Below, piece by piece: positions 3,728 to 41,329 of a DNA stretch of 46,418 nucleotides (its first letter is position 1; each line of letters starts with the position of its first letter). The translations under genes were made by a program, and so were the position numbers. Location: the NCBI GenBank assembly GCA_019695115.1, contig JAIBAP010000049.1:1-46418 (forward strand), in the 5' to 3' direction. The DNA comes from Caldilineales bacterium (lineage in GTDB: Bacteria; Chloroflexota; Anaerolineae; J102). The notes under the pieces are model-generated. The model was not told the origin of the DNA. It saw only the letters and a program-made list of their open reading frames with translations, and did not search any database.

Positions 3728-3787
3728 AGGAGTGCGTAGTGCGTATTCCGTGTTGCGTATTGCGTATTCGCGAAGAGATGATTCGTT

Positions 3788-4987
3788 CTATTTGTGTTTT
3801 GCCAATTTTTGTTTCAAAAAGGCTTTTTGCGATGATTCTGGCAACATGCCGTTGCGCATCATGGCGATGGATAGCATGTGCTCGAAATCCTGGCGTTCGC
3901 CGAATGAGACCAGGGCCAGTTCGTGGGCGCGGGCCAGGACATAAGGATACTCGGTCCCTTCGCAGTCGCGGTAGACGGCCTGCTGCACCTGGTCGAGCCA
4001 GTCGGGTCGGGCGGTGAGCCAGTTGGGGGCGTCGATACGGACGATGCGCGCTTCGTCTGACCCTGGCTTGCGGGCCACGTTCAGGTAGAAAAAGTGGATT
4101 TCCTGGCCGGCGGTGTTCAGGTCATCGCGATTCACCTTAGCCGTGCTACTGAAGATGGCCGAGCGTTCGTTGGGCGCCAGGAAATCGAACAACAGGCGGT
4201 CGGTCAGGCCCTGATAGCGGTGATTGCGCAACCGCTCCTTCTTGATCTCGCGCAGTTCCAACTGCGCCACGTCGAGCATGCGCAAGACGCTGGCCAGATG
4301 CGAACGATCGACATAGCCGATGGGGGCGACGCCGCTGGTCTCGAGCGCCCGCAGGTCGTCGATGTAGTCTCTGATCCGCTGCCGCACCTCGGCATCCATC
4401 TCCTTCTCGCCCAGCCAGATCAGCAGCGGCCCATCGCTCAGCGCCACCACCAGCCGGTCGAGGTCGCCGCCCCAAAAGGATCGCTCCTCTCTGGCCTGGC
4501 GCACCATCTCCTTCATCTCGGCCGTCTCGCGGGCTGCGTTCACCACCCGATTGTCCACCAGCTCTTTGCCATCGTCGTAGATGTCCTCGTGGCGATAGAA
4601 CACGGACGGGCGTGTGCTGGTGAGGGGGGCCTCGCCGCTGCCCTGGCGGAGGACGATGGCGCCGGTATTGATCAGATAGTAGATGGCCAGGCCGTGCCGG
4701 TCGGGATAGATCTGTGAGCCATCGACGCCGATCAAGCTGGCATCGACGGGCGGGGCTTCCGGCTGATGGCGTTCGTCCAGCCGGGCGCTGATGGGCAGCG
4801 CCCCGCGCCAACTCAGGTCCTCTTTGGCCGCTCGGTCGATCTTGTCAAGCAAAGCATCATCGACGATGGCGAATTCGGCCAATTTCTGCCGGGCTTCTGC
4901 GGCCCGCGCGCCAAGTTCTTGTTGACGCCCCGCCATGTCCCGGCTCATCGTCTCGACTTCATCCATCAATTTGCGCAGTTCGAGCAT
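3788..4987 (-). CDS. nurA: NurA nuclease domain protein
   Basis: This 399-residue nuclease is the partner of HerA. NurA resects 5' strands of DNA ends with metal-dependent exo- and endonuclease activity inside the HerA ring. After an N-terminal helical region, the motifs appear in order. GVDGSQIYPDRH at 87-98 holds the first metal-binding Asp (D89). LSDGPLLIWL at 183-192 and GYVDRSH at 224-230 follow. The C-terminal signature is YPYVLARAHELAL at about 347-359. The start ATG at 4987 has no good Shine-Dalgarno sequence. Thirteen bases upstream lies one copy of the 130-bp repeated element (5001-5129), which therefore supplies the leader and perhaps the promoter of the operon. About 60 bp of heptamer repeats separate it from the next gene. 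Confidence 0.9.
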   Translation of the reverse strand: MLELRKLMDEVETMSRDMAGRQQELGARAAEARQKLAEFAIVDDALLDKIDRAAKEDLSWRGALPISARLDERHQPEAPPVDASLIGVDGSQIYPDRHGLAIYYLINTGAIVLRQGSGEAPLTSTRPSVFYRHEDIYDDGKELVDNRVVNAARETAEMKEMVRQAREERSFWGGDLDRLVVALSDGPLLIWLGEKEMDAEVRQRIRDYIDDLRALETSGVAPIGYVDRSHLASVLRMLDVAQLELREIKKERLRNHRYQGLTDRLLFDFLAPNERSAIFSSTAKVNRDDLNTAGQEIHFFYLNVARKPGSDEARIVRIDAPNWLTARPDWLDQVQQAVYRDCEGTEYPYVLARAHELALVSFGERQDFEHMLSIAMMRNGMLPESSQKAFLKQKLAKHK

Positions 4988-5000
4988 TGGCGATCCATGA

Positions 5001-5129
5001 TTTATAGATGGCTAGCCAATGAAATGATACTCGGTCTTGAAACGTGATGCGTGATGCGTGAAAATCGTCGACGTTTTCTCACGTTTCACGGTTTACGACC
5101 TTCATAACAAATCAACCTAGCGGTCAATA
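5001..5129 (-). repeat. 130-bp element, copy 1, upstream of nurA
   Basis: This segment recurs in opposite orientation at 30342-30477 with only a handful of mismatches and one 7-bp indel. Read toward nurA it starts with TTGACC, N15, TATGAA, a possible but short-spaced promoter. A 10-bp stem follows (TGAAACGTGA pairing with TCACGTTTCA), and it ends with the palindrome TGGCTAGCCA and TATAAA, 13 bp before the nurA ATG. Both copies have the same orientation relative to the gene they precede. It encodes no protein. A MITE-like or promoter-carrying repeat is the likely nature. Confidence 0.8.
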
Positions 5130-5130
5130 G

Positions 5131-5405
5131 AACAAATTTTCGGGCGCATCCTATCACAGAAGCTCGGACGGCGGCAAGAGGGAGGGGAGTGGGAGGTCGC
5201 AGGTGGCAGGTGGCGGGTGGAAGAGCTTGTCCCTTCGCTCTGCTCAGGGCAGGCTCTGAGTGAAACGAAGGGTGGCGGGCTCGGCGGGGGGCTGGCCGCG
5301 CGGCTTCCAGCCGCGGCCAACCTTTAGGTCAAGGCCGCGCTGCTGGTGTACAATTTTTCGTCATCGGAACTTCAACCTGCCCCCCTTCGCCTGCAAGAGG
5401 TTCGC
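5131..5405. repeat. intergenic repeats upstream of the pseudophosphatase gene
   Basis: There is no gene in this gap. At about 5192-5220 there are heptamer repeats of the type GGTGGCA/GGTCGCA. At 5223-5271 lies a 49-bp imperfect palindrome (GAGCTTGTCCC...AACGAAGG) that recurs at 13461-13509 with three differences. The palindrome's arms contain CTTCG...CTCAG and CTGAG...CGAAG. The remaining bases before the start at 5406 presumably hold the promoter, but I see no convincing boxes. Confidence 0.65.
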
Positions 5406-13353: not shown

Positions 13354-14802
13354 TCAACGCGTCAAAAGGGCAAGATCGACGGTGATCTGGCCCACACATG
13401 ATGACGTTCTGCCCCGGTGGAGGTTACGAGGGGGGGGCAAGTCGCAGGTGGCAGGTGGCAGAGCTTGTCCCTTCACTCCGTTCAGGGCAGGCTCTGAGTG
13501 AAACGAAGGATCGCAGGTGGCAGGTCGCAGATGGCAGAGCTTGTCCTGAGTGAAACGAAGGATCGCAAGTGGCAGGTTCTTCGTTGACTGTTGATTGTTG
13601 ACTGTTGATTGTTGACTGTTCTGCCTTGTTTCCTTGTCTACCTGTTTCCTTGTCTCCTTATCTCCGAACACCACCTCTCCCTCCACCACCGTCGCCCGCA
13701 CCCGCAGGTCGGGCGTGAGGAGGACGAGGTCGGCCAGATAGCCGGGGGCGATGCGGCCGCGCTCGCGGCCCAGGCCCAGCAGGTCGGCGGGGGTGGTGGT
13801 GATGGTCGCCAGAGCCGCGGGCAGGGGGCAATCCGTCCAGGCGACCAGGTTGCGCAGGGCCTGGTCCATAGCCAGGATGCTTCCGGCCAGGGTGCCATCG
13901 GCCAGGCGGCAGCTGATCTCGTCCACATAGACAGCGTAATCGCCCAGCAGGTGCGTGCCCGGCGGCACACCCAAGGCGGCCATTGCATCCGTCACCAGGT
14001 TGAGCCGCGGCCCCAGGCTCTTCCAGGCCAGATCGACCATAGAAAGATGGGTGTGAATGCCGTCATTGATGTAACCGACTACGGGGCGCGGGTCGGTGAG
14101 GAGGGCGCCCGCCAGCCCCGGTTGGCGATGGTTGAGCGGCGGCATGGCGTTGAAAAGGTGGGTGCCATAGCGGATGCCGGCAGCGAAACCGGCCGTCGCT
14201 TCCTCCCAGGTGGCCATGCTGTGCCCGGCGCTGACCACCACCCCGCGGCCAACCAGCGCCTCGACCAGGTCCAGCGCGCCCGGCAGTTCCGGGGCCAGCG
14301 TCACCAGCCGCACGTGGTTCTCCACCGACCAGCCGGCGATGGCGCCCAGGTCGGGCCGGCGCAGGTAGGAGGGGTTGTGGGCGCCTTTTTTCTGCGGGTT
14401 GAGGAAAGGGCCTTCGAGATGCAGGCCGAGCGGGGTCGCGCCCGACCAGCCGGGATCGGGGCCGTCGGCCATCACCTCCTGGGCGCCGGTCATGCGGTCG
14501 AGGGGGGAAGTGATGATGGTGGGGAGGAAGGCGGTGACGCCGTAGCGGGGCAGCCCGGCTGCCACCGGCCAGATGCTGGTCGGGTCGGCGGTGAAGTCGT
14601 AGCCGAAGGCGCCGTTGAACTGCAGGTCGATGAAGCCAGGAGCCAGGATCAGCCCGGCTCCCTCCACAACCCAGGCGCCGGGCGGGCAGGGCGTCTCGCC
14701 GACCGGCCCCACCGCCGCAATCCGCTTGCCATCGACAATGACCGCCGCATCATCGAGCCGCCGGTCGGGCGTGTAAAGCACGGCATTTTGTATGTATAGC
14801 AT
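13354..14802 (-). CDS. nagA: N-acetylglucosamine-6-phosphate deacetylase with a repeat-derived C-terminal tail
   Basis: NagA removes acetate from GlcNAc-6-phosphate to give glucosamine-6-phosphate. The start ATG at 14802 ([10 protein letters not shown]) fits the family N-terminus; the longer frame upstream is minisatellite sequence. Family motifs are [70 protein letters not shown] and [10 protein letters not shown], covering the metal and substrate residues. The conserved protein ends near [10 protein letters not shown]. After this the frame runs on for about 80 codons through tandem repeats and two copies of a palindromic repeat to a stop 23 bp before the next gene. This tail is probably an accident of repeat insertion. 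The gene lies between the ROK-type gene and the Asp-box gene in one minus-strand unit. Confidence 0.9.
13439..13640. repeat. heptamer repeats and two copies of a 49-bp palindrome inside the nagA 3' end
   Basis: GGTGGCA/GGTCGCA heptamers flank a 49-bp palindrome at 13461-13509 (also at 5223-5271). A shortened copy at 13537-13561 lacks its middle 24 bp. GTTGACT/GTTGATT heptamers follow at about 13583-13620. All of these are translated as the extra C-terminal tail of nagA. Confidence 0.8.
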
Positions 14803-15091
14803 GGGGAGTAGGGAGGGGGGAGTAAGGAGTAGGGAGGGGGGAGTAAGGAGTAAGGAGTAGGAAGTAGGGAGTAGGAAGTAGGAAGTAGGGAGTAGGAAGT
14901 AGGGAGCGTGGTGAAGTAGTGTATTCTGTAGGTAGAATACCACCACCCACATGCAAACAGTAGATTATGAACAACCAGGAACGCGAATAAACACGAATAA
15001 CCAATCTCCAATAACCAATCTCCAATAACCAATCTCCAATAACCAATCTCCAATAACCAATCTCCAATCCCCATTCGCCCTCTTCGCGGCC
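14803..15091. repeat. two minisatellites between nagA and the ROK-type gene
   Basis: At about 14803-14907 there are degenerate AGTAGGG/AGTAGGA units. At about 14998-15068 there are five units of a 14-bp repeat made of two related heptamers (CCAATCT-type and CCAATAA-type). No gene is present. Spurious reading frames here translate to LEIGDW-like peptides. Confidence 0.85.
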
Positions 15092-16486: not shown

Positions 16487-16734
16487 AGGGATGTGCTGAT
16501 GATGAGAGGTTTGTGTGGGTAGGGTGTTGCGTGGTGCGTGGTGCGTGGTGCGTGGTGCGTAACGAACACGGAACACGGAACACGGAACACGGAACACCTA
16601 AACGCCAGGTTCGTTCGCCAGCATCACAGTGTAAAAACTCTGTTTGCGCTTGGCAAGTGGGCGATCCGAAAGCAGGCCCTGGAGCTTCGGCGCCACCTTC
16701 GGCGTCTGCTGCTGGGTCTGGTATGATTTGCTGC
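16487..16734. repeat. divergent intergenic region with heptamer repeats
   Basis: This gap separates the ROK-type gene and the MalT-type regulator. GTGCGTG heptamers (four units, about 16525-16560) are followed by AACACGG heptamers (four units, about 16561-16598). Both promoters must lie here, but I see no consensus boxes. Confidence 0.75.
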
Positions 16735-24403: not shown

Positions 24404-24546
24404 CTACTTGGAGGCTACGAAATTGGAGACCCTTCACTTGCTGATCGAAGAGACAGAACACCAGCTTGACCCGTTCAGGGTGACAAACATGAGGGGTCTT
24501 CGTTCCAACGCACTCGTCATCCATCCATTCACACAGGAGAAGAACC

Positions 24547-26178
24547 ATGAAAGCTCTCACTTCGTTGCTCATCATCGTCCTTGTCGCCGTCCTGCTGGCG
24601 GCCTGCGGCGGCGCCCAGGCCACTCCGACGCCCGTCCCCGCCCCTACCAGCCCGCCTGAACCCACCGCGCCGCCGCAGCCGGCCGTGGGCGGCAAGATGG
24701 TCATCGCCCTGGCCACCGAACCCACCTCGCTCGACGTGCACCGCGCCAGCGACCTCTACCCCGTCATGCAGTTCGTGGGCGCCAGCCTGCTGACCAAAGA
24801 CCCGGACAGCGGCGAGTACCTGCCCTACCTGGCCACCGAGTGGTCGGTGGCGGAGGACGGCCTGAGCTATGAGTTCAAGCTGCGCGACGACGTCAAGTTC
24901 CACGACGGCACGCCGCTGACCGCCCAGGACTACGCCTACACGTTCAACCGGGCCATCGCCCAGCAGCCGCCGTCCACAGCCGGCGCCGTCCTCTTGGGCC
25001 TGGCCCAGGCCGAGGCGGTCGACGACCACACCCTCAAGTTGACCATGGCCCAGCCCAACTCCACCCTGCTCGACGTTCTCTCGCGGCCCACCTATCACCA
25101 GCCTCTGCCCCAGGCCGCGACCGAAAAGCTGGGCGATGACTTCGGCCGCCAGCCCATCAGCGTCGGCCCGTTCAAGTTCAAGGAGTGGGTGACGGGCGAG
25201 AAGATCGTGTTGGAACGCAACCCCGATTTCGCCTGGGGGCCATCCTTCAGTCGGGGCGCCGCGCCCTACATCGAGACGATCGAGTTCCGCTTCCTGCCCG
25301 AATACGCCACCCGGCTGGCCGGCCTGGAAGCCGGCGAGGTGGACTACATGATGCTGGAGGCGAAGGACATCGAGCGCCTGGGGGCCGACGGCAAGTATCA
25401 GATGTTGCCGCGGCTCGACCAGGGATCGGGCGAGACGATCCTCATGAACGTCACCAAAGCGCCTTTCGATGACGTGAACGTGCGCAAGGCCATCAACCTG
25501 GCCATCGACCGCGAGGTGCTGGTGAAGGTCGTGCAACAGGGCCAGGCGCAGGTGGACAAAGGCCCCATCACGGCCGCCACCTACGGCTATTGGCCGGGCG
25601 TCGAGCAGATCGGCTATGGTTATGACCTGGAGCAGGCCAAGAAGTTGATGACCGACGCCGGTTACACCGCCAGCGCCGACGGCATCCTGCAAAAGGACGG
25701 CAAGCCGCTTTCGCTGACGTTGATGACCTCGGCTCGCAACGCCAAGGACGCTGAGATCATCCAGCAGCAATTGCGCCAGCTGGGCATCGATGTCAAGATC
25801 CAGCAGGCCGAGTACGGCATCATGCAGGCCGACCTGACCAAGGGCAACTACGACTTCGCCCTCAACCGCCTGGGCTGGCAGGATTACGGCCTCATGTTCG
25901 CCATGTACCACCCGGCCATGCTCGGCGTCTTCAACCAGACCCAGCTCAACGATGAGGCGCTCAACAACCTCCTGCTGCCCATGATCGGCGCGCCCGTGCC
26001 CGCGGTCGTGCAGGACTTCGCCAACAAATCGCAACAATACCTCGTCGAGCAAGCCTACTCGGCCCCGCTCTACGGCGTGATGACCACCTACGCCCTCGAC
26101 AACCGCATCCACGACGCCAGGTTTGCGCCCCTATTCGACGCCATCTGGCTGTTCGACGCCTACATCGACACCAAGTAG
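24547..26178 (+). CDS. peptide/oligopeptide-binding lipoprotein of an ABC transporter (family 5)
   Basis: This 543-residue extracytoplasmic solute-binding protein has a lipoprotein signal with lipobox LLAAC (C20), then a Pro/Thr-rich tether (PTPVPAPTSPPEPTAPP). The family 5 domain begins at GGKMVIALATEPTSLD and contains YEFKLRDDVKFHDGTPLTA and the typical ALDNRI near the end. Such proteins deliver peptides or other oligomers to Dpp/Opp permeases, which are encoded at 33.5-37.4 kb in the same series. AGGAG precedes the ATG. The 143-bp gap upstream is the largest among the first genes of the island and may hold a promoter. Confidence 0.92.
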   Translation: MKALTSLLIIVLVAVLLAACGGAQATPTPVPAPTSPPEPTAPPQPAVGGKMVIALATEPTSLDVHRASDLYPVMQFVGASLLTKDPDSGEYLPYLATEWSVAEDGLSYEFKLRDDVKFHDGTPLTAQDYAYTFNRAIAQQPPSTAGAVLLGLAQAEAVDDHTLKLTMAQPNSTLLDVLSRPTYHQPLPQAATEKLGDDFGRQPISVGPFKFKEWVTGEKIVLERNPDFAWGPSFSRGAAPYIETIEFRFLPEYATRLAGLEAGEVDYMMLEAKDIERLGADGKYQMLPRLDQGSGETILMNVTKAPFDDVNVRKAINLAIDREVLVKVVQQGQAQVDKGPITAATYGYWPGVEQIGYGYDLEQAKKLMTDAGYTASADGILQKDGKPLSLTLMTSARNAKDAEIIQQQLRQLGIDVKIQQAEYGIMQADLTKGNYDFALNRLGWQDYGLMFAMYHPAMLGVFNQTQLNDEALNNLLLPMIGAPVPAVVQDFANKSQQYLVEQAYSAPLYGVMTTYALDNRIHDARFAPLFDAIWLFDAYIDTK

Positions 26179-26305
26179 CCGTCCTCCCCCGCCCCTGATC
26201 TCCAACCTCCAATCTCCAATCTCTAATCTCCAATCTCCAATCTCCAATTACCAATCTCCAATTACCAATTACCGATCACTGCCCACTGACCACCGCCCAC
26301 TGCCC
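26179..26305. repeat. heptamer tandem repeat (CTCCAAT type)
   Basis: About ten degenerate units of CTCCAAT with variants ending TTACCAAT fill about 26199-26275, between the binding-protein gene and the S9 peptidase. The same unit occurs at 14998-15068 and 31648-31676. Confidence 0.85.
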
Positions 26306-28267
26306 ATGACCCCCACCCCACCCCTCCCGCCCATCGCCCCGGAAGACCTCTTCCGGCTGCACTTCGTGCAGAACGGCCGCCTGTCGCCCGACGCTTCGGC
26401 CGTGGCCTACAGCGTTTCGTTCACCGATCCGGCCAGCGACGCCGACCGGGCGGCGATCTGGCTGCAAGCGTTGGCAGGCGGCGAACCCCGCCAACTGACG
26501 ACCGGCCGCGCCTACGACACCAACCCGCAATGGTCGCCCGACGGCAGCACCCTGGCTTTCCGCTCCAATCGCGAGGGCAGGATGCAGATCTACCTGCTGC
26601 CGGCCGATGGCGGCGAGGCCCGGCAACTGACCTACCTGCCGCAGGGGGTGGGCGACGACTTCGCCTGGTCGCCCGATGGCCGCTGGATGGCCTTCAGCGC
26701 CGGCCCAAGCCGGCCGGCTTTCGACCCCAACCGGCCGTATCGCCTCACCCGCGCCATGTACCGGCTCGACGGCATGGGCTATGTCGACAACGCCATCCAT
26801 GACCTCTACGCCATCGCCTCTGCCGGCGGCGAGCCGGTTCAACTGACGCACGACGCCTGCCACAACACCCGCCCGGTCTGGTCGCCTGACGGCAAGGGCA
26901 TTCTCTACGAGGTGACGCTGTTCCCCAACTCGTATCGCTTCTTCCCGGCCCTGTGGCTGGTTGGCTTCGAGGATGGCCGGGCGGGTGAGAAGTGGCCGCT
27001 GGTGGAGGAGTGGGGCTTTGTCCGCGCCGCCGCCTGGCTGCCCGACGGCAGCCGCGTGGCCTTCATCGGCAACCGCCACGTGCCCTTCGGCACGCCCAGT
27101 CACCTGTGGCTGATCGACCGTGGCGGCGGCGAGCCGGAGTGCCGCACGGCCGCCATTCCCTACGACGTGGGCAAGGAGCTCCAGCCCGACATGCCCTGCC
27201 TGGAACTGGCCGAGCCGCTCCTGCTGGTCGCGCCCGACGGTCACTTTGCGTTCATGCGCGTCAGCACCGGCGGCCGAATGCGCACCTTCCGCGTCGCCCT
27301 GGCCGGGCCGGAAAGCTGGGAGGAGGTGTTGCCAGAGGGCGAGCGCAGCGATCTGCCGCTGGACTTGCAGAGCGGGCGGCTGCTCATGGCCGTCTCGACC
27401 CTGCACGACCCCAACGACCTGATCGTGGCCGATGCCTGGGGCAAGGACGAACGGCGGTTGACCTGTGTCAACGCCGACTTTCTGGCCTCCCGCGCCCTGC
27501 CCTCGGCCGAGCGCCTGAGTTTCGCCAGCAGCGACGGCCAGGCCATCGAGGGCTGGTTCCTGCGGCCGGCGCTGGCTGAGCCGCCCTACCCCACCGTCCT
27601 GCTCATCCACGGCGGGCCGCACCAAAGCTGGGGTCACATCTACGGCTTCGACGCCCAGATGCTGGCCGGGGCCGGCTACGGCGTCTTGCTGATCAACTAC
27701 CGCGGCTCGGCCGGCTACGGCGGCGATTTCAGCACCCAGATCAACGGCAACCTGGGCGAGCTGGAATACGCCGACCTGATGGCGGGCGTCGATTACGCCA
27801 TCGCCCTGGGTCTGGCCGACCCCGACCGCCTGGGCGTGTGCGGTCTCTCCTATGGCGGCTTCCTCTCCTGCTGGATCGTCGGCCACACCGACCGTTTCAA
27901 GGCGGCTGTGCCCGAAAACCCGATCGCTAATCGCATCAGCTGGTACGGCGTGGCCGACATGGGGCTGAGCCATCTCGAGTCGGTGGGCGGGCATCTGCAT
28001 GATGTCCCGGAGCGATACTGGGCCTGCTCACCCATCACCTATGCCCAACGCTGCACCACTCCCACCCTGCTGATCCAAAGCGAACACGACTGGCGCTGCC
28101 CGGCCGAGCAGTCCGAGCAGTTCTACACCATCCTCAGAAGCCACGGCTGCGTGGCCGAGATGCTGCGTCTGCCCCACATGCCGCATATGGCCTCGGCCGG
28201 CGGCCCACCCTTCATCCGCCGCGCCCAGAACGAGGCGCTGCTGGACTGGATGCAACGCTATCTGTGA
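26306..28267 (+). CDS. S9 family serine peptidase (acylaminoacyl-peptidase type)
   Basis: I chose the ATG at 26306 because the frame before it is repeat sequence; the product is 653 residues. Residues 10-390 form a seven-bladed WD/TolB-like propeller (LTTGRAYDTNPQWSPDG, YLPQGVGDDFAWSPDGRW). The alpha/beta hydrolase domain follows. The nucleophile is S515 in GLSYGG, the acid is D595 (SEHDWRCP), and the base is H624 or H627 (LPHMPHM). The oxyanion region is LLIHGGPHQSWG. These cytosolic enzymes cleave short peptides or remove N-acylated residues. No signal peptide is present, so it would act on imported peptides. It overlaps or abuts the M28 gene. Confidence 0.9.
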   Translation: MTPTPPLPPIAPEDLFRLHFVQNGRLSPDASAVAYSVSFTDPASDADRAAIWLQALAGGEPRQLTTGRAYDTNPQWSPDGSTLAFRSNREGRMQIYLLPADGGEARQLTYLPQGVGDDFAWSPDGRWMAFSAGPSRPAFDPNRPYRLTRAMYRLDGMGYVDNAIHDLYAIASAGGEPVQLTHDACHNTRPVWSPDGKGILYEVTLFPNSYRFFPALWLVGFEDGRAGEKWPLVEEWGFVRAAAWLPDGSRVAFIGNRHVPFGTPSHLWLIDRGGGEPECRTAAIPYDVGKELQPDMPCLELAEPLLLVAPDGHFAFMRVSTGGRMRTFRVALAGPESWEEVLPEGERSDLPLDLQSGRLLMAVSTLHDPNDLIVADAWGKDERRLTCVNADFLASRALPSAERLSFASSDGQAIEGWFLRPALAEPPYPTVLLIHGGPHQSWGHIYGFDAQMLAGAGYGVLLINYRGSAGYGGDFSTQINGNLGELEYADLMAGVDYAIALGLADPDRLGVCGLSYGGFLSCWIVGHTDRFKAAVPENPIANRISWYGVADMGLSHLESVGGHLHDVPERYWACSPITYAQRCTTPTLLIQSEHDWRCPAEQSEQFYTILRSHGCVAEMLRLPHMPHMASAGGPPFIRRAQNEALLDWMQRYL

Positions 28268-28272
28268 CGCCC

Positions 28273-29499
28273 ATGGACATCACCGCCCTGCTCGAACAGG
28301 TCGATCCCGAAGCCATCTACCGCCACGTGCTACGACTTGAGGGTGTGCGCCATCCGATCGAGACGCCCGACCGCCTGGCCGCCGCCGCCGAGACCATCGC
28401 CGCCGAGATGAACGCCTGTGGCCTGGCCGTGCGCCGGCAGGAGGTGCGGGTGGCGGGCTGGGAGGGTCTGTTCTGGAACATCGAAGGCCGGCTTGGGCCT
28501 GAAGACGAGCCGGCCGCCGTGCTCATCAACCACTACGATACGGTGTGGAACACGCCCGGCGCCAACGACAACGCCGTCTCGGTGGCCGTGGCGCTGGAGG
28601 CGGCGCGGGTGCTGGCGCAGCTGCCTTCCCCGCCCGCCCTCGCCTTCGTCAGCGCCACGCTGGAGGAGGGCAACCCGGCCATCGAGAGCCAGGCGCGGGC
28701 GCTGGCCATCCAGTACGGGCTGCGCGATGAAGGCCGTCGCTATCGCAGCCACCGGCTCGCCCGCCTGGCCAGGCAGCACACCGCCCGCTTCGAGGCCGCC
28801 CGGCTGGACGGCCAAGCCTATGGCGCCGCCATCTCAACAGCCGCTGCCGAGCTGGCCGCTGAGATGCCCGACGCCATGCGGGACTACTACCGCGACCTCG
28901 CCCGCCTCTACACCGCCCCTGACGACGCCGCCAACATCGGCCTGACCAGCAAGATCGGCAGCACGGCCTGGCTGGCCGAGGCCCTGAGCCAGGGCCGGCC
29001 GCTCCGCTTCTGCATCTGCCTGGACGAGATCGGCACAGTCAGCAAACAGCCGTACTCACAGCACTTCCCCGATGCCATCCGTTACGACATGCTGCACACC
29101 TACCGGGTGGACGCCGAGCGGGAAATCGGCGATTTCGTCCTCCTGCTGACCAATGCCCCGGCGGCCGGCCTGGCCGAGCGCTTCGCCGCGGCCTGCCGTC
29201 GCGACGATATCGACCTGCCCCATGCCTGGCTGCATTTCGACCTGCCCTTCGCCGAGATCGTCCGTCAGGTCCCGCGCAGTCTAGGCTCGGACCATGCCGC
29301 CTTCTGGCAGGCGGGCATCCCCGGCCTGTTCGTCTTCGACACAGCCGATTTTCGCAATCCCTTCGGCCACAGCATGGCCGACACCATCGACAAGGTGGAT
29401 TTCGACCAGGTCGCCCGCATCTGCCGGGCGGTCGTGGCCACCATCGCCGATCCCACCGTTTCAGGCGGCGTCCTCACCGCCGAGGGTTCTTCACCATGA
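28273..29499 (+). CDS. M28-type zinc metallopeptidase
   Basis: This 408-residue protein has the co-catalytic zinc arrangement of M28 aminopeptidases: INHYDTVWNTPGANDNAVS at about 86-104 (His/Asp ligands and the bridging Asp), FVSATLEEGNPA (Glu pair, catalytic base and ligand), LDEIGT, and the late GHSMADTIDKVDF (His ligand). It lacks a signal peptide, unlike many M28 enzymes, so it is probably cytosolic. I prefer the ATG at 28273; a GTG at 28264 overlapping the preceding TGA is possible. The end overlaps the M55 gene in ATGA. An amidase or carboxypeptidase role is not excluded. Confidence 0.85.
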   Translation: MDITALLEQVDPEAIYRHVLRLEGVRHPIETPDRLAAAAETIAAEMNACGLAVRRQEVRVAGWEGLFWNIEGRLGPEDEPAAVLINHYDTVWNTPGANDNAVSVAVALEAARVLAQLPSPPALAFVSATLEEGNPAIESQARALAIQYGLRDEGRRYRSHRLARLARQHTARFEAARLDGQAYGAAISTAAAELAAEMPDAMRDYYRDLARLYTAPDDAANIGLTSKIGSTAWLAEALSQGRPLRFCICLDEIGTVSKQPYSQHFPDAIRYDMLHTYRVDAEREIGDFVLLLTNAPAAGLAERFAAACRRDDIDLPHAWLHFDLPFAEIVRQVPRSLGSDHAAFWQAGIPGLFVFDTADFRNPFGHSMADTIDKVDFDQVARICRAVVATIADPTVSGGVLTAEGSSP

Positions 29500-30338
29500 A
29501 AGTCTTCATCTCTGCCGACATCGAAGGCGTGGCCTGCGTGGCCCACATCGCCGAGATCTTCGCCGAGGCCGGCGGCGAGTACCAGATGGCCCGTCGCTGG
29601 ATGACGGCCGAGGTCAATGCCGCCGCCCTGGGCGCATTCGAGGCCGGAGCCAGCGAGGTGGTGGTGGCCGACTCGCACTCCAGCTTCCGCAACCTCCTGC
29701 CCGACGAATTGCACGAGGACGTGGTGCTGGTGCGCGGGACGCCGCGACCGATGTTCATGATGCAGGGCCTGGACGCCAGCTTCGACGCCGTCTTCTTCAT
29801 CGGCTATCACGCCCGCCACAACGACCCCGGCGGCGTCCTCGGCCACACCTTCATGGAGCAGGTCGCGGCCATCCGGCTCAACGGCCAGACCATCGCCGAG
29901 GCCCATTTCAACGCCGCCATTGCCGGGCACCTGGGCGTGCCCGTGGCCCTGGTCAGCGGCGACCACGTGATCGCCGAGGCCGTGCGGACGGCGTTGCCCT
30001 GGGCCGAGCGGGTGGTGGTCAAACAGGGGCTGGGCGTGCTGGCCACGCAGAGCCTGACCCCGCGCAAGGCGCAGGCGCGCATCCGCGCGGGCGCGCGGGC
30101 TGCCCTGGCCCGCCTGGGCGAGATGCAGCCCTTCGTCCTCGCCCGGCCCATCACCCTGGAAGTAGATTTTGGCATCGGCCAATGGGCGCAACTCTCGGCC
30201 GACTTGCCCGGCGCCGAGCTGATCGGCGAGCACAGCGTGCGCTATTTGGCAGCCGACATGCTCGAAGCGCAGCGCATCCTCCGCCTGATGCTCAACCTGA
30301 CCATGAACCACCCCCGCACCGGCGGGAAGTCGTATTGA
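29496..30338 (+). CDS. M55 family D-aminopeptidase (DppA type)
   Basis: This 280-residue enzyme releases N-terminal D-amino acids from peptides. The residues that define DppA are in place: D8 and E10 in ISADIEGV, H61 in ADSHSSF, H105 in GYHAR, the probable nucleophile H117 in LGHTF, and E135 in TIAEAHFN. In Bacillus, dppA sits beside a dipeptide permease, and here it lies in the same series as a full Dpp transporter. Its start overlaps the M28 stop. It ends directly before the second copy of the 130-bp element. It is strong evidence that D-amino-acid-containing peptides are substrates. Confidence 0.92.
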   Translation: MKVFISADIEGVACVAHIAEIFAEAGGEYQMARRWMTAEVNAAALGAFEAGASEVVVADSHSSFRNLLPDELHEDVVLVRGTPRPMFMMQGLDASFDAVFFIGYHARHNDPGGVLGHTFMEQVAAIRLNGQTIAEAHFNAAIAGHLGVPVALVSGDHVIAEAVRTALPWAERVVVKQGLGVLATQSLTPRKAQARIRAGARAALARLGEMQPFVLARPITLEVDFGIGQWAQLSADLPGAELIGEHSVRYLAADMLEAQRILRLMLNLTMNHPRTGGKSY

Positions 30339-30341
30339 TTG

Positions 30342-30477
30342 TATTGACCGCTAGGTTGATTTGTTATGAAGGTCGTAAACCGTGAACCGTGAACCGTGAG
30401 ATAACGTCGGCGATTTTCACGCATCACGCATCACGTTTCAGGACCGAGTATCATTTCTTTGGCTAGCCATCTATAAA
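30342..30477 (+). repeat. 130-bp element, copy 2, upstream of the C45 gene
   Basis: This is the inverted counterpart of 5001-5129, longer by one GGTTCAC heptamer. It starts at TATTGACCG immediately after the M55 gene and ends in GGCTAGCCATCTATAAA, six bases before the C45 start codon. There is no Shine-Dalgarno sequence between the element and the ATG, so TATAAA could be the -10 box of a leaderless transcript. It interrupts an otherwise tightly packed series. Confidence 0.8.
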
Positions 30478-30483
30478 ACCTGC

Positions 30484-31656
30484 ATGGAGACGAAACGAGT
30501 GCGCAGTTCTGATATTCCTGTGCTGCATCTGAAAGGCCCGGCCCGCGAACGGGGCCGCGCCCACGGCGAAACCCTGCGGGCCAGCATCCACAGCATGATC
30601 GAGAAGTGGCAGGCCAACATCGCCGCCGACCTGGGCACGGACCCGGACCTCTTCCTGCGCCAACTGGTCGAGGAGACCGACTTCTTCCCGGCCGTGCGCC
30701 GCTGGACGCCCGACCTGTTGGAGGAGGTGGAAGGCATCGCCGAAGGCGCGGCCGCGCCCTTCCACATCATCTTTGCCCGCCAACTGAGCGACGAAGAGCC
30801 GTGGTTCCGCTGGGAGAAGAAGCTGGGCCGGGGCTGGGGGTGGAGGGAACCGTCCGGGCAGGCCGAGCGCTGCACATCGTTGGGCGTGCAGCCTGCGGCC
30901 GGCCGGCCCGCCATCGCCGCCCAGAACATGGACAGCCCCGCCTACTACGACGGCCACCAGGTGCTGCTGCACATCACCTACCCCGATAGCGACCTGGAAG
31001 CGCTGATCTTCACCATCGGCGGCAAGATCTCGCTGGCCGGGATGAACAACGCCCCCCTGGCCATGTGCTGCAACACCGTGCTGCAGCTCGACTACGCCAA
31101 AGACGGCCTGCCCGAAGACTTCATCGTGCGCGGCTTTCTGGGCCAGCGCCATTGGCAGGACGGACTGGCGTTTCTGCGCCGGGTCAAGCACGCCTCCGGC
31201 CAAAACTACATCGTCGCCGGCCAGGATCAGGTGCTGAGCCTGGAATGCTCGGCCGGCGGCATCGCCGACTTCGTCCCCTATCCCGGCGCCGACCGCACCT
31301 TTCACACCAACCATCCCCTGGCCAACGACGACCAGGGCATCCACCGGCAGCGGCTGGCCGCCATGACCCCGGCCCAGGTTGCGGCCTACCACGCCAGCCT
31401 GACCACCCATGCCCGTTTCGAGGCCTTGCAGCGGCGCTTTGGCCGCCCCGAGGCGCCGGTCACGGTCGAGGCCATCGAAGAAGCCCTGAGCACACACGAA
31501 GGCCCGGTCTGCATCGACGGCGCCGGGGACAAGATCACCCTCGGCTGCCTGATCATGGCGATGACCCCGGCCCCCACCCTGTCCCTGGCCCCCGGCCCGC
31601 CCTGCTCCACCGCCTTCGCCACCCACCCCCTGCCGCCCCTGCGCAATCTCCAATAA
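30484..31656 (+). CDS. C45 family acyltransferase/amidase (isopenicillin N acyltransferase-like)
   Basis: This 390-residue member of the Ntn-hydrolase-fold C45 family includes isopenicillin-N acyltransferase and N-acyl amide hydrolases. The N-terminal GPARERGRAHGETL (18-31) and the nucleophile C130 in AERCTSLG are visible, followed by AAQNMDS, which is the strand conserved after the nucleophile. Maturation by cleavage before Cys130 would give a small alpha and a large beta chain. The last 30 residues are Pro-rich and end in repeat-derived sequence. It is expected to cleave or form amide bonds of N-acylated or cyclic peptides. Its leader is supplied by the 130-bp element. Confidence 0.85.
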   Translation: METKRVRSSDIPVLHLKGPARERGRAHGETLRASIHSMIEKWQANIAADLGTDPDLFLRQLVEETDFFPAVRRWTPDLLEEVEGIAEGAAAPFHIIFARQLSDEEPWFRWEKKLGRGWGWREPSGQAERCTSLGVQPAAGRPAIAAQNMDSPAYYDGHQVLLHITYPDSDLEALIFTIGGKISLAGMNNAPLAMCCNTVLQLDYAKDGLPEDFIVRGFLGQRHWQDGLAFLRRVKHASGQNYIVAGQDQVLSLECSAGGIADFVPYPGADRTFHTNHPLANDDQGIHRQRLAAMTPAQVAAYHASLTTHARFEALQRRFGRPEAPVTVEAIEEALSTHEGPVCIDGAGDKITLGCLIMAMTPAPTLSLAPGPPCSTAFATHPLPPLRNLQ

Positions 31657-31689
31657 CCAATCTCCAATCTCCAATTACTGACCTCCCCC
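31657..31689. repeat. heptamer repeat (CTCCAAT type), short
   Basis: A short array of the CCAATCT/CCAATAA heptamers overlaps the last codons of the C45 gene and the gap before the ThDP enzyme. Confidence 0.7.
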
Positions 31690-33378
31690 ATGTCCCCACC
31701 CACCAACCCACCCACCGCCGCCCGTTTCCTGGCCGAAACGCTGACAAACTATGGCGTCACCCACGTTTTCTACGTGGACGCCATCCTGCGCAAGACGATG
31801 GTCGAGCTGGAAGCGCTGGGCGTCCGCCGCGTCGTCACCCACTCCGAGAAGGCGGCTGCCTACATGGCCGACGGCTACGCCCGCATCGCCCGCCGCGCCG
31901 GCGTCTGCCTGGCGCAGTCGGTGGGCGCGGCCAACCTGGCCGCCGGCCTGCAAGACGCCTGGCTGGGCCATTCGCCTGTGATCGCGCTCACCGGTAAAAA
32001 ACCGCCCGCTTTCCAGCACCGCCACGCCTACCAGGAAATCGACCACACGCCGCCCTTTACGGCAGTGACCAAGTTCAACGCCGATGTGACGACGCCGGCG
32101 CAGTTGCCGCAGCTGTTGCGGCAGGCATTCCGGTCGGCGCTCTCCGCCACGCCGGGGCCGGTGCACCTGGATCTGTTGGGGCACAACGGCCGGGCGCTGG
32201 AGGCGGCCACGGTCGAGTTCGGGCCGGCTGGGGCCGAGCAGCCGGTCGCCATCCCCCTCCGTCGCCCTCGCCCCGACCCGGACGAAGTGACCCAGGCCGC
32301 CGCCGCCATCGCCGCCGCCAAGAGGCCGGTGATCGTGGCCGGCGGCGGCGTCACCCTCGGCTCGGCTGCGCAGAGCGAGCTGATAGCCCTGGCCGAGAAA
32401 CTGTCCATCCCCGTGGCCACCTCGGTCAACGGCAAAGGCGCCATCCTCGATACGCACCCCCTCAGCGTCGGCGTCGTCGGCTCCTACTCGGCCCGCTGCG
32501 CCAACCAGGTGGTGGCCGAGGCCGACCTGGTCATCTTCATCGGCAGCGCGACCGGCGACCAGACCACGCACGACTGGCGCCTGCCCCGACCCGGCGCGGC
32601 GGTGGTGCAGATCGACCTCGACCCAGCCGAGATCGGCCGCAACTATCCGGGCGCGGTCGGCGTCGTCGGCGACGCCAAAGCCGCCCTGACCATGCTGCTC
32701 GAAGTCTGCCAGCCGACCCCAGCCGACCCTGGCTGGCTGCCGCGGGTGCGCCAGCTGGTGGCAGCCTGGCAGCAGGAGATCGAGCCGCTGCGTTGCTCCG
32801 CTGCCATCCCGATCCGCCCCGAGCGGCTGTGCAAAGACCTGAGCGACGCCCTCCCCGCCGACGCCGTGCTGGTCTCGGACACCGGCTATGCGGCCATCTG
32901 GACGGCGACGATGGTGCAGCTCAGGCAGCCCGGCCAGACCTACCTGCGCGCGGCCGGCTCGCTGGGCTGGGCCTTTCCGGCGGCGTTGGGCGTCAAGTGC
33001 GCGACGCCGGAGCGGCCGGTGCTCTGTTTCAGCGGCGACGGCGGGTTCTGGTATCACCTGGCCGAGTTGGAGACGGCGCGGCGGCACGGCATCGCCACCG
33101 TCACGGTCGTCAACAACAACGGCGGCTTTGCCCAGGGCATCGACGACATCCACGCCCAATACGGCGACCGGCCCGGCCGCCCGGAGGAACTCTATCGCTT
33201 TGCGCCGGTCGATTTCGCCCGCCTGGCCACCGACATCGGTTGCCTGGGCCTGCGCGTCGAAGACCCCGCCGACCTGGCCCCGGCCCTGCGCCAGGCCCTG
33301 GCCGCCAACCGGCCCGCCGTCATCGATGTCGTCACCGACCTTTCCTACCGCGCCCCGGCGCCGTGGACGCCGAATTGA
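31690..33378 (+). CDS. thiamine diphosphate-dependent enzyme (acetolactate synthase-like)
   Basis: This 562-residue protein has three domains. The PYR domain carries the catalytic E53 in VTHSEKAAAYMADGYAR. A central FAD/nucleotide-like domain starts near KRPVIVAGGGVTLGS. The PP domain carries the ThDP motif from CFSGDGGFWYHL to VVNNN, about 30 residues apart. Acetolactate synthase, glyoxylate carboligase and 2-oxo acid decarboxylases share this plan. No regulatory small subunit is adjacent, so a catabolic role is more likely than branched-chain amino acid synthesis. It may act on a 2-oxo or 3-oxo acid from the pathway. The substrate cannot be named. Confidence 0.85.
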   Translation: MSPPTNPPTAARFLAETLTNYGVTHVFYVDAILRKTMVELEALGVRRVVTHSEKAAAYMADGYARIARRAGVCLAQSVGAANLAAGLQDAWLGHSPVIALTGKKPPAFQHRHAYQEIDHTPPFTAVTKFNADVTTPAQLPQLLRQAFRSALSATPGPVHLDLLGHNGRALEAATVEFGPAGAEQPVAIPLRRPRPDPDEVTQAAAAIAAAKRPVIVAGGGVTLGSAAQSELIALAEKLSIPVATSVNGKGAILDTHPLSVGVVGSYSARCANQVVAEADLVIFIGSATGDQTTHDWRLPRPGAAVVQIDLDPAEIGRNYPGAVGVVGDAKAALTMLLEVCQPTPADPGWLPRVRQLVAAWQQEIEPLRCSAAIPIRPERLCKDLSDALPADAVLVSDTGYAAIWTATMVQLRQPGQTYLRAAGSLGWAFPAALGVKCATPERPVLCFSGDGGFWYHLAELETARRHGIATVTVVNNNGGFAQGIDDIHAQYGDRPGRPEELYRFAPVDFARLATDIGCLGLRVEDPADLAPALRQALAANRPAVIDVVTDLSYRAPAPWTPN

Positions 33379-33545
33379 GCACGTGAAGCGTGAAACGTGA
33401 GGCGTGAAACGTGAAGCGTGAAACGTGAAACGTGAAGCGTGAAACGTGAAGCGTGAAGCGTGAAGGCGCTGGCCCACGCACCACGGAACACGAAACACGA
33501 AACACGCACCACGAAACCCGGAACCCGGAACCCCAAACCCACCCC
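33379..33545. repeat. heptamer repeats (CGTGAAA/CGTGAAG and ACACGAA types)
   Basis: About eleven CGTGAAA/CGTGAAG/CGTGAGG heptamers at 33380-33464 are followed by a block of ACGAAAC/CACGAAA and CCGGAAC units at 33484-33541. No gene is present. It splits the ThDP-enzyme gene from the permease genes. Confidence 0.85.
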
Positions 33546-34466
33546 ATGCTTCTCTACACCATCCGCCGCCTGCTGACCCTGATCCCCGTCCTCTTGGGTG
33601 TGTCGTTCCTGACCTTCGCCATCGCCCAGGTGACGCCGGGCGACCCGGCCGCGCTGGCGCTGGGCACCAACGCCACACCCGAGGCCATCGCCGCCCTGCG
33701 CCAGCAGCTCGGCCTGGACGACCCCTTCCTGGTGCAGTACGGCCGCTATGTCTGGAACGCCCTGCACGGCGACCTGGGCACCTCGATCCGGGGCCAGACG
33801 CCGGTGTTGCAAGAGATCTTGCAGCGGCTGCCCAGCACGGTCGAGTTGACGGTGGCGGCCATGCTGATCGCCATCGTCCTGGGGGTGGGCGCCGGCATCA
33901 TCGCCGCCACCACCCGCCATCGCTCGCTCGACGGCGCCACCATGGTCACCTCGCTGGTGGGCCTCTCCATCCCCAACTTCTGGCTGGCGATCCTCCTGAT
34001 CATCGTTTTCGGCGTCAACCTGAAGTGGATCTCCGTCACCGGCGGCGAGGGCCTGGCCGACCTGCTCCTGCCGGCCTTCGTGCTGGCCCTGGCACCGGCG
34101 GCGGTGCTGGCCCGGCTCACGCGTTCGAGCATCAAAGAGGTGGTGCGCGAGGATTATGTGCGCACGGCGCGGGCCAAAGGCCTGAGCCTGCGCCAGGTGA
34201 TCCGGGTGCACGTGGTGCGCAACTCGCTCATCCCGGTCATCACCGTCATCGGTCTGCAGACGGCGGCCCTGTTGGGCGGGGCGGTGTTCATCGAGGCCGT
34301 GTTCGCCCGGCCCGGCCTGGGCCGTTTTGCCGTCAACGCCATCGCCAACCGCGACTATCCGCAGGTGCAGGGCGTGGTGCTGTTTGCGGCGCTCGTGTAT
34401 GTTCTCGTCAATTTGGGCGTCGATCTCCTCTACGGCGTCCTCGACCCGCGCATCCGCTATGACTGA
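33546..34466 (+). CDS. peptide ABC transporter permease (DppB type)
   Basis: This 306-residue inner-membrane permease starts at MLLYTIRRLLTLIPVLLGVS, the typical DppB N-terminus. It has six membrane helices and the EAA-type loop around LTRSSIKEVVREDYVRTARAKGLS, which contacts the ATPases. The longer upstream frame is repeat sequence and was excluded. It forms the transporter with the next three genes and, in all likelihood, the lipoprotein at 24.5 kb. The gap to the next gene is 6 bp. Confidence 0.93.
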   Translation: MLLYTIRRLLTLIPVLLGVSFLTFAIAQVTPGDPAALALGTNATPEAIAALRQQLGLDDPFLVQYGRYVWNALHGDLGTSIRGQTPVLQEILQRLPSTVELTVAAMLIAIVLGVGAGIIAATTRHRSLDGATMVTSLVGLSIPNFWLAILLIIVFGVNLKWISVTGGEGLADLLLPAFVLALAPAAVLARLTRSSIKEVVREDYVRTARAKGLSLRQVIRVHVVRNSLIPVITVIGLQTAALLGGAVFIEAVFARPGLGRFAVNAIANRDYPQVQGVVLFAALVYVLVNLGVDLLYGVLDPRIRYD

Positions 34467-34472
34467 GGCCCT

Positions 34473-35366
34473 ATGAGCGCCATCGCCACGCCTGCCGTCT
34501 CCATCGCCGACCAGCCGGCCCGCAGCGAAAGCCTGTGGCGCACAGCCTGGCGCTCGCTGCGCCGCAATCCCGTGGGGATGTTCGGGCTGGTGGGCTTTCT
34601 GGCCCTGGTGGGGCTGGTGCTGCTGGCGCCGGCCCTGGCGCCGGCTGACCCCACGGCCATGGATTTCGAGCACATCCTCGAAGGCCCCAGCCATAGCCAT
34701 CTCTTTGGCACCGACGATCTGGGCCGCGACATCCTCAGCCGGGTGCTTTATGGCGGGCGCGAGTCGCTCAGCGTGGCCCTGCTGGCGGTGGCCGTGGCCG
34801 GCATCGGCGGTGTGGTCTTTGGCCTGATCAGCGGCTACTACGGCGGCGCCGTGGACAACACCATCATGCGGCTGGTCGATATCCTGCTGGCCTTCCCCGC
34901 CATCCTCCTGGCCCTGAGCATCGTGGCCGCGCTCGGCCCCAGCCTGGGCACGGTGTTGATCGCCCTGGGCCTGTCCTCGATCCCGGCCGTGATCCGTTTC
35001 GTGCGCGGCACGGTGTTGGCGGCCAAGAACAACGAATACGTGCTGGCCGCGCGCGTCTTGGGCGCCGGCGACGCCACCATCATGTTCACCCAGATCCTGC
35101 CCAACATCTTCGCCCCGCTCATCGTCTACAGCACCCTCGGCCTGGCCAGCGCCATCCTGGCCACCGCCGGCCTCAGCTACATCGGCCTGGGCGCGCAGCC
35201 GCCCTCGCCCGAATGGGGCGCCATGCTGAACGCCGGCCGCACCTACCTGCGCGACGCCTGGTGGATGTCGGTCTTCCCCGGCCTGGCCATCTTCTTCGCC
35301 GTGCTCTGCATCAACCTGCTGGGCGACGGCCTGCGCGATGCGCTCGACCCCAAGCTGCGCGTCTGA
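34473..35366 (+). CDS. peptide ABC transporter permease (DppC type)
   Basis: This is a 297-residue permease. After a short cytoplasmic N-terminus comes a DppC-type helix (MFGLVGFLALVGLVLLAPAL). The family block is HLFGTDDLGRDILSRVLYGG, with an EAA loop around VRGTVLAAKNNEYVLAARVLGAGD. The C-terminal GLSYIGLGAQPPSPEWGAML is highly typical. It pairs with the DppB-type permease to make the channel. Confidence 0.94.
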   Translation: MSAIATPAVSIADQPARSESLWRTAWRSLRRNPVGMFGLVGFLALVGLVLLAPALAPADPTAMDFEHILEGPSHSHLFGTDDLGRDILSRVLYGGRESLSVALLAVAVAGIGGVVFGLISGYYGGAVDNTIMRLVDILLAFPAILLALSIVAALGPSLGTVLIALGLSSIPAVIRFVRGTVLAAKNNEYVLAARVLGAGDATIMFTQILPNIFAPLIVYSTLGLASAILATAGLSYIGLGAQPPSPEWGAMLNAGRTYLRDAWWMSVFPGLAIFFAVLCINLLGDGLRDALDPKLRV

Positions 35367-35378
35367 GGAGCCGCCGCC

Positions 35379-36362
35379 ATGCCTACCCTGCTGGAAATCT
35401 GCAACCTGACGACCCAGTTCCACACCCGCGAGGGGGTGATCATGGCCGTCGCTGACGTCTCCTTCAGCCTGGAGGAGGGCGAGGTGGCGGCCATCGTGGG
35501 CGAGAGCGGCAGCGGCAAGAGCGTGACCATGCTCTCGGTCCTGCGCCTGATCCCAGAGCCGCCGGGCCGGATCAGCGCCGGGCAGGTATTGTTCAAGGGC
35601 CGCGACCTGGTGCAACTGCGCGAGGAGGAGATGGAGCGCGTGCGCGGGGCCGAGATCGCCATGATCTTCCAGGACCCGCTTTCGTCGCTGAACCCCACCC
35701 TCACCATCGGCTTTCAGATCGGCGAGGCGCTCAAGCTGCACCAGGGGATGAGCGACGAGCAGGCGCAGAGGCGGGCGGCCGAGCTATTGACGATGGTCGG
35801 CATCCCCAACGCCGGCGAGCGGCTGCAGGACTACCCACACCAGTTCTCCGGCGGCATGCGCCAGCGGGCGATGATCGCCATGGGGCTATCGTGCAACCCC
35901 CAACTGCTGATCGCCGATGAGCCGACCACGGCCCTCGATGTGACCATCCAGGCCCAGATCGTCGACCTGATCCAGCGCTTACAGGCCGAGATGGGGATGA
36001 CGGTCATCTGGATCACCCACGATCTGGGGGTGGTGGCGCGGCTGGCCGAGCGGGTCATCGTCATGTACGCCGGCGCCATCGTCGAGGATGCGCCGGTGGA
36101 CGAGCTCTTCGCTGCGCCCGGCCATCCCTACACCCTGGGCCTGCTGGCTTCGCTACCCCATCTGGATGCGGCCGACGATGCCCGCCTGGTTTCGATCCCC
36201 GGCCAGCCGCCGCACCTGGCCAACCTGCGGCCCGGCTGCCCCTTTGCCCCGCGCTGCGGCTACACCATGGACCGCTGCACCCGCGAGAAGCCGGCCCTGG
36301 AAATCGTGGCCCCGCGCCATCGTGTGGCCTGCTGGAAAGCCGCCTCACCGACCGGAGCGTGA
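35379..36362 (+). CDS. peptide ABC transporter ATP-binding protein (DppD type)
   Basis: This 327-residue ATPase has Walker A GESGSGKS, the Q-loop at [11 protein letters not shown], signature [15 protein letters not shown], Walker [13 protein letters not shown] and the H-loop at WITHDLGVV. The C-terminal oligopeptide-transporter extension carries the cysteine cluster near [14 protein letters not shown], which in this subfamily can hold an iron-sulfur cluster. Twelve bases separate it from the DppC-type gene and 4 bp from the next ATPase. Confidence 0.95.
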
Positions 36363-41110: not shown

Positions 41111-41329
41111 TGCATTCCTCCGACCCGAATGATAGCACATATCTGCTTGGTTCTGGAGTCATCACAACGGCAGCCGGGCGCTGACCCGCGTCCCGCCCTC
41201 TGGCCGACGCTCGAGCCGGCAGGCCGGCGCCAGCCCCACCAGGCCAGGCGGTATGCGCCAGGGGAAGAGCGGCTGTCATCTCACACCTCACGCTTCACGT
41301 TTCACGGAACACGCAACACGGAACACGCC
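41111..41329. other. intergenic region with a short heptamer block
   Basis: No gene is supported. Heptamer blocks CACGCTT/CACGTTT and ACACGGA/ACACGCA lie at about 41277-41325, next to the DinB-like gene's stop. The promoter of the HicB-like gene must be here, but I see no clear boxes. Confidence 0.5.

Follow-up and report, generated by a model that had tools for sequence, protein, structure and literature searches.

A dispersed 130-bp hairpin repeat with heptamer arms in a Caldilineales genome is probably a non-autonomous, TA-targeted insertion element

The stretch of DNA analysed here, 46,418 nucleotides of a Caldilineales draft assembly (GCA_019695115.1, contig JAIBAP010000049.1) and called the window below, carries a herA-like gene (201-1955) close to nurA (3788-4987; NurA, PF09376). 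Between the nurA start codon and a conserved upstream box lies the first of two copies of a repeat, copy A. Copy B spans the gap from the stop codon of an M55 peptidase gene (30338) to ATG 30484 of a C45/AAT-like gene whose product matches PF03417. No gene was called inside either copy. The features of these two regions are as follows.

5003-5129, + strand: copy A, 127 bp including the TA at each end
5003-5042, + strand: left end of copy A, from the alignment of copies; TA, then TAGATGGCTAGCC..ATGATACTCGGTC..TTGAAA
5043-5090, + strand: heptamer arms and spacer of copy A; CGTGATG units and the reverse complement of CGTGAAA units
5091-5129, + strand: right end of copy A, from the alignment of copies; GTTTACGACCTTCATAACAAATCAACCTAGCGGTCAA, then TA
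5130-5159, − strand: conserved box upstream of nurA, common to three species and outside the element
30342-30475, − strand: copy B, 134 bp including the TA at each end

A 73-bp stretch close to the herA-like gene's start (1872-1944) is repeated 636 bp upstream, at 2508-2580, with 95% identity, which suggests a partial duplication.

Within the window, BLASTN aligns copies A and B with 89% identity over 147 columns, and because the E value is 6e-53 this likeness is not a chance one. The initial annotation had described a 130-bp element in two inverted copies and was correct within a few bases; the palindrome that it had pointed out, TGGCTAGCCA, is found in both. Copy B differs from copy A by one extra 7-bp unit and scattered substitutions. 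The same end had been said to face a start codon in each case, and this holds. The left end, TATAGATGGCTAGCC, is the one nearest the start codon in both copies, at 15 bp from the nurA ATG (4987) in copy A and at 8 bp from ATG 30484 of the C45/acyltransferase-like gene in copy B, or at 44 bp in the latter if GTG 30520, the start favoured by our simple home-made gene caller, is used.

The two window copies belong to a larger set. In the genome of origin (G000), a 6.0 Mb draft in 135 contigs from which multi-copy IS elements may be missing, BLASTN gave 57 matches, many of them to heptamer arrays only. From these matches, a covariance-model search (51 matches, some of them on the reverse strand or to the core only) and inspection we count 24 copies, together with at least five further decayed remnants that keep one end or a part of one end (C62, C17, C50:28281, C7:87073 and C34). 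Both ends are present in 20 of the 24 copies (L001-L017, C72, C46:15938 and C13) and one end is clear in three (C3, C12, C5), while the remaining one is apparently split by an insertion, its halves lying at two contig ends (C16/C45) that we presume to join. This split copy (L018 at the end of C16, L023 at the start of C45) seems to be interrupted in a heptamer arm by an insert with AATTTTGCGCAAAATTT-like ends. All 24 copies are intergenic, overlapping called gene ends by some 26 bases at most; about 18% of TA dinucleotides in sampled DNA are intergenic in the same sense. Sixty other genomes of the class, two of them of the same genus, gave no BLASTN match of comparable length, only the heptamer core, and an 18-base exact scan of a collection of genome contigs, from which the record of this genome may be absent, returned four stretches, three in records of Bacteroidota type and one in a Nitrospira record.

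At the nurA site the insertion itself can be read. Two sister species, G001 and G002, have AAGCATTTTGCCTGCCACACGCGTAGAACAAATTTTCG and GAGCATAGGAGTAGAACAAATTTTCG at this position, both without the element, while G000 has GAGCATTGGCGATCCATGATTTA, then the element, then TAGAACAAATTTTCG. The element has thus entered at a TA and is bordered by TA on either side. The earlier suggestion that it is mobile is borne out by the 24 copies, by the cleanly empty nurA site of both sister species and by the TA on both sides. Around intact ends the TA is preceded by Y in 14 of 16 cases and followed by R in 16 of 18. Y-TA-R occurs jointly in 11 of 13 copies, a count that leaves out ends with a changed or missing TA and thereby drops 11 of the 24 copies; among 446 background TA readings the share is 9.9% (p = 6e-10). 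A Y-TA-R context is what would be expected of an IS630 derivative; IS630 reportedly prefers the TA in CTAG, which is a Y-TA-R site (a title cited in PMC2170065).

When the flanks of L003 and L006 are rejoined they read, by our own inspection, ATC TAG and AAT TAA, and the TA had therefore been part of a stop codon in both. The right end restores the stop as TAT TGA. An insertion at a stop codon's TA (TAG in L003, TAA in L006) would thus be tolerated because the right end supplies an in-frame TAT TGA, and the element provides a case of an insertion that strikes a stop codon and replaces it at once. At L010 the upstream gene likewise ends inside the element and the orthologous spacers of both sisters are element-free; the left end is too changed for the original target to be read. 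The genes flanking L006 are split between contigs in the sister genomes, and a DNA search with 24500-35800 gave no match over copy B in G001 or G002.

Over its full length the element forms an imperfect inverted repeat. Its ends, TAGATGGCTAG and TTGACCGCTAG, are only partly inverted repeats of each other, with a GCTAG/CTAGC core and shared short blocks, imperfect pairing and no clean terminal repeat. In the arms, 7-bp units (CGTGATG and the reverse complement of CGTGAAA among them) surround a spacer. Lengths of 127, 134, 141, 183, 253 and 330 bp are found among the copies and differ mostly by added heptamers, and in three copies (L016, L017 and C72) the expansion is mostly in the left arm with no counterpart on the right. 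Such one-sided arm growth fits slippage, not maintenance of a perfect hairpin. Either strand of the element folds as one long hairpin (z = −2.8 and −2.4 relative to shuffles). The consensus fold has a two-sided change in only one of its 37 pairs and therefore no covariation, and the fold may be no more than a consequence of the inverted-repeat composition. This, together with the absence of any match of the element in Rfam 15, rules against an RNA regulator, and a scan that found no terminator-like site at the copy A or copy B regions does the same for a terminator. The sole Rfam match in the window lies outside the element, at 2652-2722 on the + strand, and corresponds to DUF3800-IX RNA (RF02968, 47.7 bits, above the gathering score).

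We consider it highly probable, at roughly 0.87, that the 130-bp repeat belongs to the non-autonomous, MITE-like insertion elements, with a TA target and heptamer arms. It is short, multicopy, dispersed and non-coding (24 copies, 127-330 bp), shows a target duplication and an unfilled site as a bacterial MITE does, and contains head-to-tail 7-bp units in its arms and expanded copies as heptanucleotide arrays do. A transposase encoded elsewhere would act on its ends, either one of the IS630/Tc1-mariner type or one from a TA-duplicating branch of the IS5 family; some IS5-family branches use TA-type targets. Heptamer units in the arms would be gained and lost, most simply via replication slippage, and some old copies would lose one end and persist as heptamer arrays. 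Within a 5′ leader such as that of nurA, the element would most likely form an untranslated hairpin downstream of the native promoter and ahead of the gene, not a new promoter. An IS630 derivative should be accompanied by a DDE_3 transposase with similar ends, and the IS630-type DDE_3 domain (PF13358) has no match in G000, with matches in 3 of 14 control genomes. The places elsewhere in the assembly that carry the right-end 13-mer point to no longer element (L085, L086, L088 and L091 were inspected), nor did we find an autonomous element sharing the ends in the 135-contig draft, from which a partner may be missing. Many MITEs have been reported without a known partner (PMC2229807).

The same review describes ERIC/IRU, Correia/NEMIS and RUP as elements of less than 200 bp with TA at both ends and a target duplication, which encode no protein of their own and whose transcripts would form long stem-loops, all of which applies to the present element (PMC2229807). 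Unlike in these families, to which we liken it by description and not by sequence, its arms are made of heptanucleotide repeats in variable number. RUP is linked to IS630-Spn1, and the effect of ERIC on upstream transcripts depends on orientation (PMC2229807); for our element no partner IS was found in the assembly. Duplication of a TA target is shared with IS630/Tc1-mariner elements, as outlined for ISY100 in PMC2170065, but the assembly is without an IS630-type transposase. MITEPsy1 of Pseudomonas syringae, a MITE of about 100 nt, targets CTAG or YTAA, which resembles the Y-TA-R context seen here, and one of its copies lies 14 nt upstream of a start codon (PMC3189936). It is listed there as "IS5?", which makes it a lead toward the IS5 family, and differs in having a 4-nt duplication and 18-nt terminal repeats, whereas our element has only TA on both sides.

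The initial annotation had gone further and proposed a mobile promoter or leader that wires unrelated genes to one signal, the element thus acting on genes next to its left end. The positions of the copies are in part what this would predict. Fifteen copies lie between tandem genes, 12 with the left end toward a start and the right end toward a stop and three the other way round (two-sided p 0.035; 13:4 and p 0.049 with two decayed copies; 9:2 and p 0.065 in the best-preserved copies). In 6 of 24 copies by the gene caller the left end comes within 20 bp of a start, with 6.1% of usable TAs expected (p 0.003), or in 7 of 24 if ATG 30484 is taken for copy B (p 0.0004), compared with only 2 of 24 for the right end. 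This bias in start proximity is suggestive only, because the gene caller that supplied the starts is simple and home-made and the 20-bp cut-off was picked after the window copies had been seen; without those two copies it stands at 5 of 22 (p 0.009). Moreover, five copies are divergent and four convergent in context, the latter four without any facing start codon, so the stronger claim that the element always precedes a start in one orientation does not hold and only this weaker form of it survives. We rejected an immediate in-frame stop supplied by the right end as the cause of the orientation bias, because only L003 and L006 agree with it. Signals for transcription argue against a promoter. 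A sigma-70-type scan found no site reading outward from the left end of copy A or B; it did find two sites elsewhere, one inside copy A that is directed from the left into the element and one at copy B's right end that points away from the C45-type gene. The terminal TATAAA noted earlier does exist, but it consists of the element's TATA plus flanking bases. Over 21 left ends the outward hexamer reads TATAAA in three and TATAAT in one, and the best −35 matches 3 of 6 positions, so no consistent promoter emerges. The lack of covariation in the fold speaks against a leader, as does the absence of the element upstream of nurA in the sister species. On the nurA strand, the box at 5130-5159 contains GAACAAATTTTC and a −10-like TAGGAT hexamer and is still upstream of the insertion; it is probably the native nurA promoter/operator, or an SOS-type box to judge by consensus sequences. 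A promoter or leader role is therefore unlikely, and the two unrelated genes of the window are not a regulon on present evidence, which matters for their annotation. The 25 kb separating the inverted copies had also been thought open to inversion by recombination. That the pair is kept in order to flip this segment is hardly credible, however, given that these are two of 24 dispersed copies, and no inversion is fixed at copy A since gene order across it equals that of G001.

A palindromic, intergenic repeat in a genome with three Y1_Tnp matches also brings to mind REP-like sequences, which a RAYT (Y1 transposase) would move as single-stranded DNA. This is very improbable. At 127-330 bp the element is far from the 20-40 bp palindromes given for REPs in PMC3733652, it has TA on both sides and partly inverted ends, and among the matches to the element none of the copies falls on any of the three Y1_Tnp sites, to which the closest match is a heptamer-only one about 3 kb off on C6. 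An alternative that would be compatible with a MITE-like element is that the heptamer hairpin is the primary unit, spreading or arising alone and captured by several unrelated repeat families. Its abundance would fit. A three-heptamer pattern has 736 matches in the genome compared with one for the reversed control, far above the 33 sites within three mismatches of the spacer CGTGARRATCGCCGACGTYTTCTCACG (none for its reversed control in G000), and in other genera of the family the hairpin occurs inside different repeats or without a shared flank. The pattern is present in 8 of 151 genomes of the phylum. On the other hand, some arrays preserve a trace of the element. For 17 arrays without full ends, the 300 bp on either side were searched for the element ends by alignment, and the scores were compared with 200 shuffles that keep base composition only. 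Five arrays keep one end outside the array, the left in C62 and C17 and the right in C5, C50 and C7, each scoring above all 200 shuffles; C5 is already among the 24 copies, so that only four of these cases are additional. The remaining 12 have no clear end, including C28 and C12 (right-end score 11, shuffle maximum 12) and C24 (left-end score 12, shuffle maximum 13). Some arrays therefore derive from the element, and we regard a primary hairpin as possible yet rather unlikely. With 736 pattern matches in the genome, most heptamer runs are not shown to be derived from the element. The element may seed arrays or may have captured one, and both may hold.

Returning to the MITE-like element, we propose tentatively, and at less than even odds, that it acts as a bacterial foldback-type transposon that seeds arrays: inverted arms are planted, slippage expands them, the ends decay and intergenic 7-bp arrays like those frequent in this genome remain. 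If true, this would account for at least some of the excess of heptameric repeats noted in bacteria. Tetris, a foldback transposon of Drosophila virilis, is likewise apparently non-autonomous and has tandem repeats in inverted arms, which gave rise to satellite DNA with longer arrays also outside the element (PMC4079207); it differs in being eukaryotic, with 220-bp units and kb arrays, and no homology is suggested. The heptanucleotide arrays described in PMC4679880 and PMC4692102 for Beggiatoaceae, cyanobacteria, Xanthomonas and Nostoc are also intergenic, with 7-bp units and indels in steps of seven, and in Cand. Maribeggiatoa they lie mostly just upstream of starts. There, a single unit is mainly repeated in direct orientation, in contrast to the paired inverted arms found here in a mobile element. 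Bacterial MITEs and heptanucleotide arrays are thus each already known, and a mobile hairpin with expandable heptamer arms joins both and offers a testable origin for some 7-bp arrays. Within the open-licence literature searched we found no MITE with heptamer arms, nor any paper that brings heptanucleotide repeats and Chloroflexi together.

Other repeats of related design were seen alongside the element. A different hairpin repeat, CGTAGTAGCGACTTTAGTCGCT..., with tandem copies about 76 bp apart, lies at approximately 1400-1650 of L085 (contig C13), and a genome of another genus (G015, L092-L101) contains a modular repeat of greater length in which CTATTTTCAAAGCAG and GCTCGCCGATACGAATGAAAACGCCTCGCGGCCAGGCTGGCG occur and whose middle part carries the heptamer hairpin. 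The window itself contains further tandem arrays:

3733-3768, 13583-13620, 14804-14906, 14996-15073, 16524-16597, 26198-26306, 31644-31686, 33382-33540 and 41303-41327: tandem arrays

The intergenic ones are mostly of period 7 with differing units (TGCGTAT, GTTGACT, GGGAGTA, CCAATCT, GTGGTGC, CGTGAAG and others), and some period-7 arrays form inverted pairs, for example at 16524-16597 and 33382-33540.
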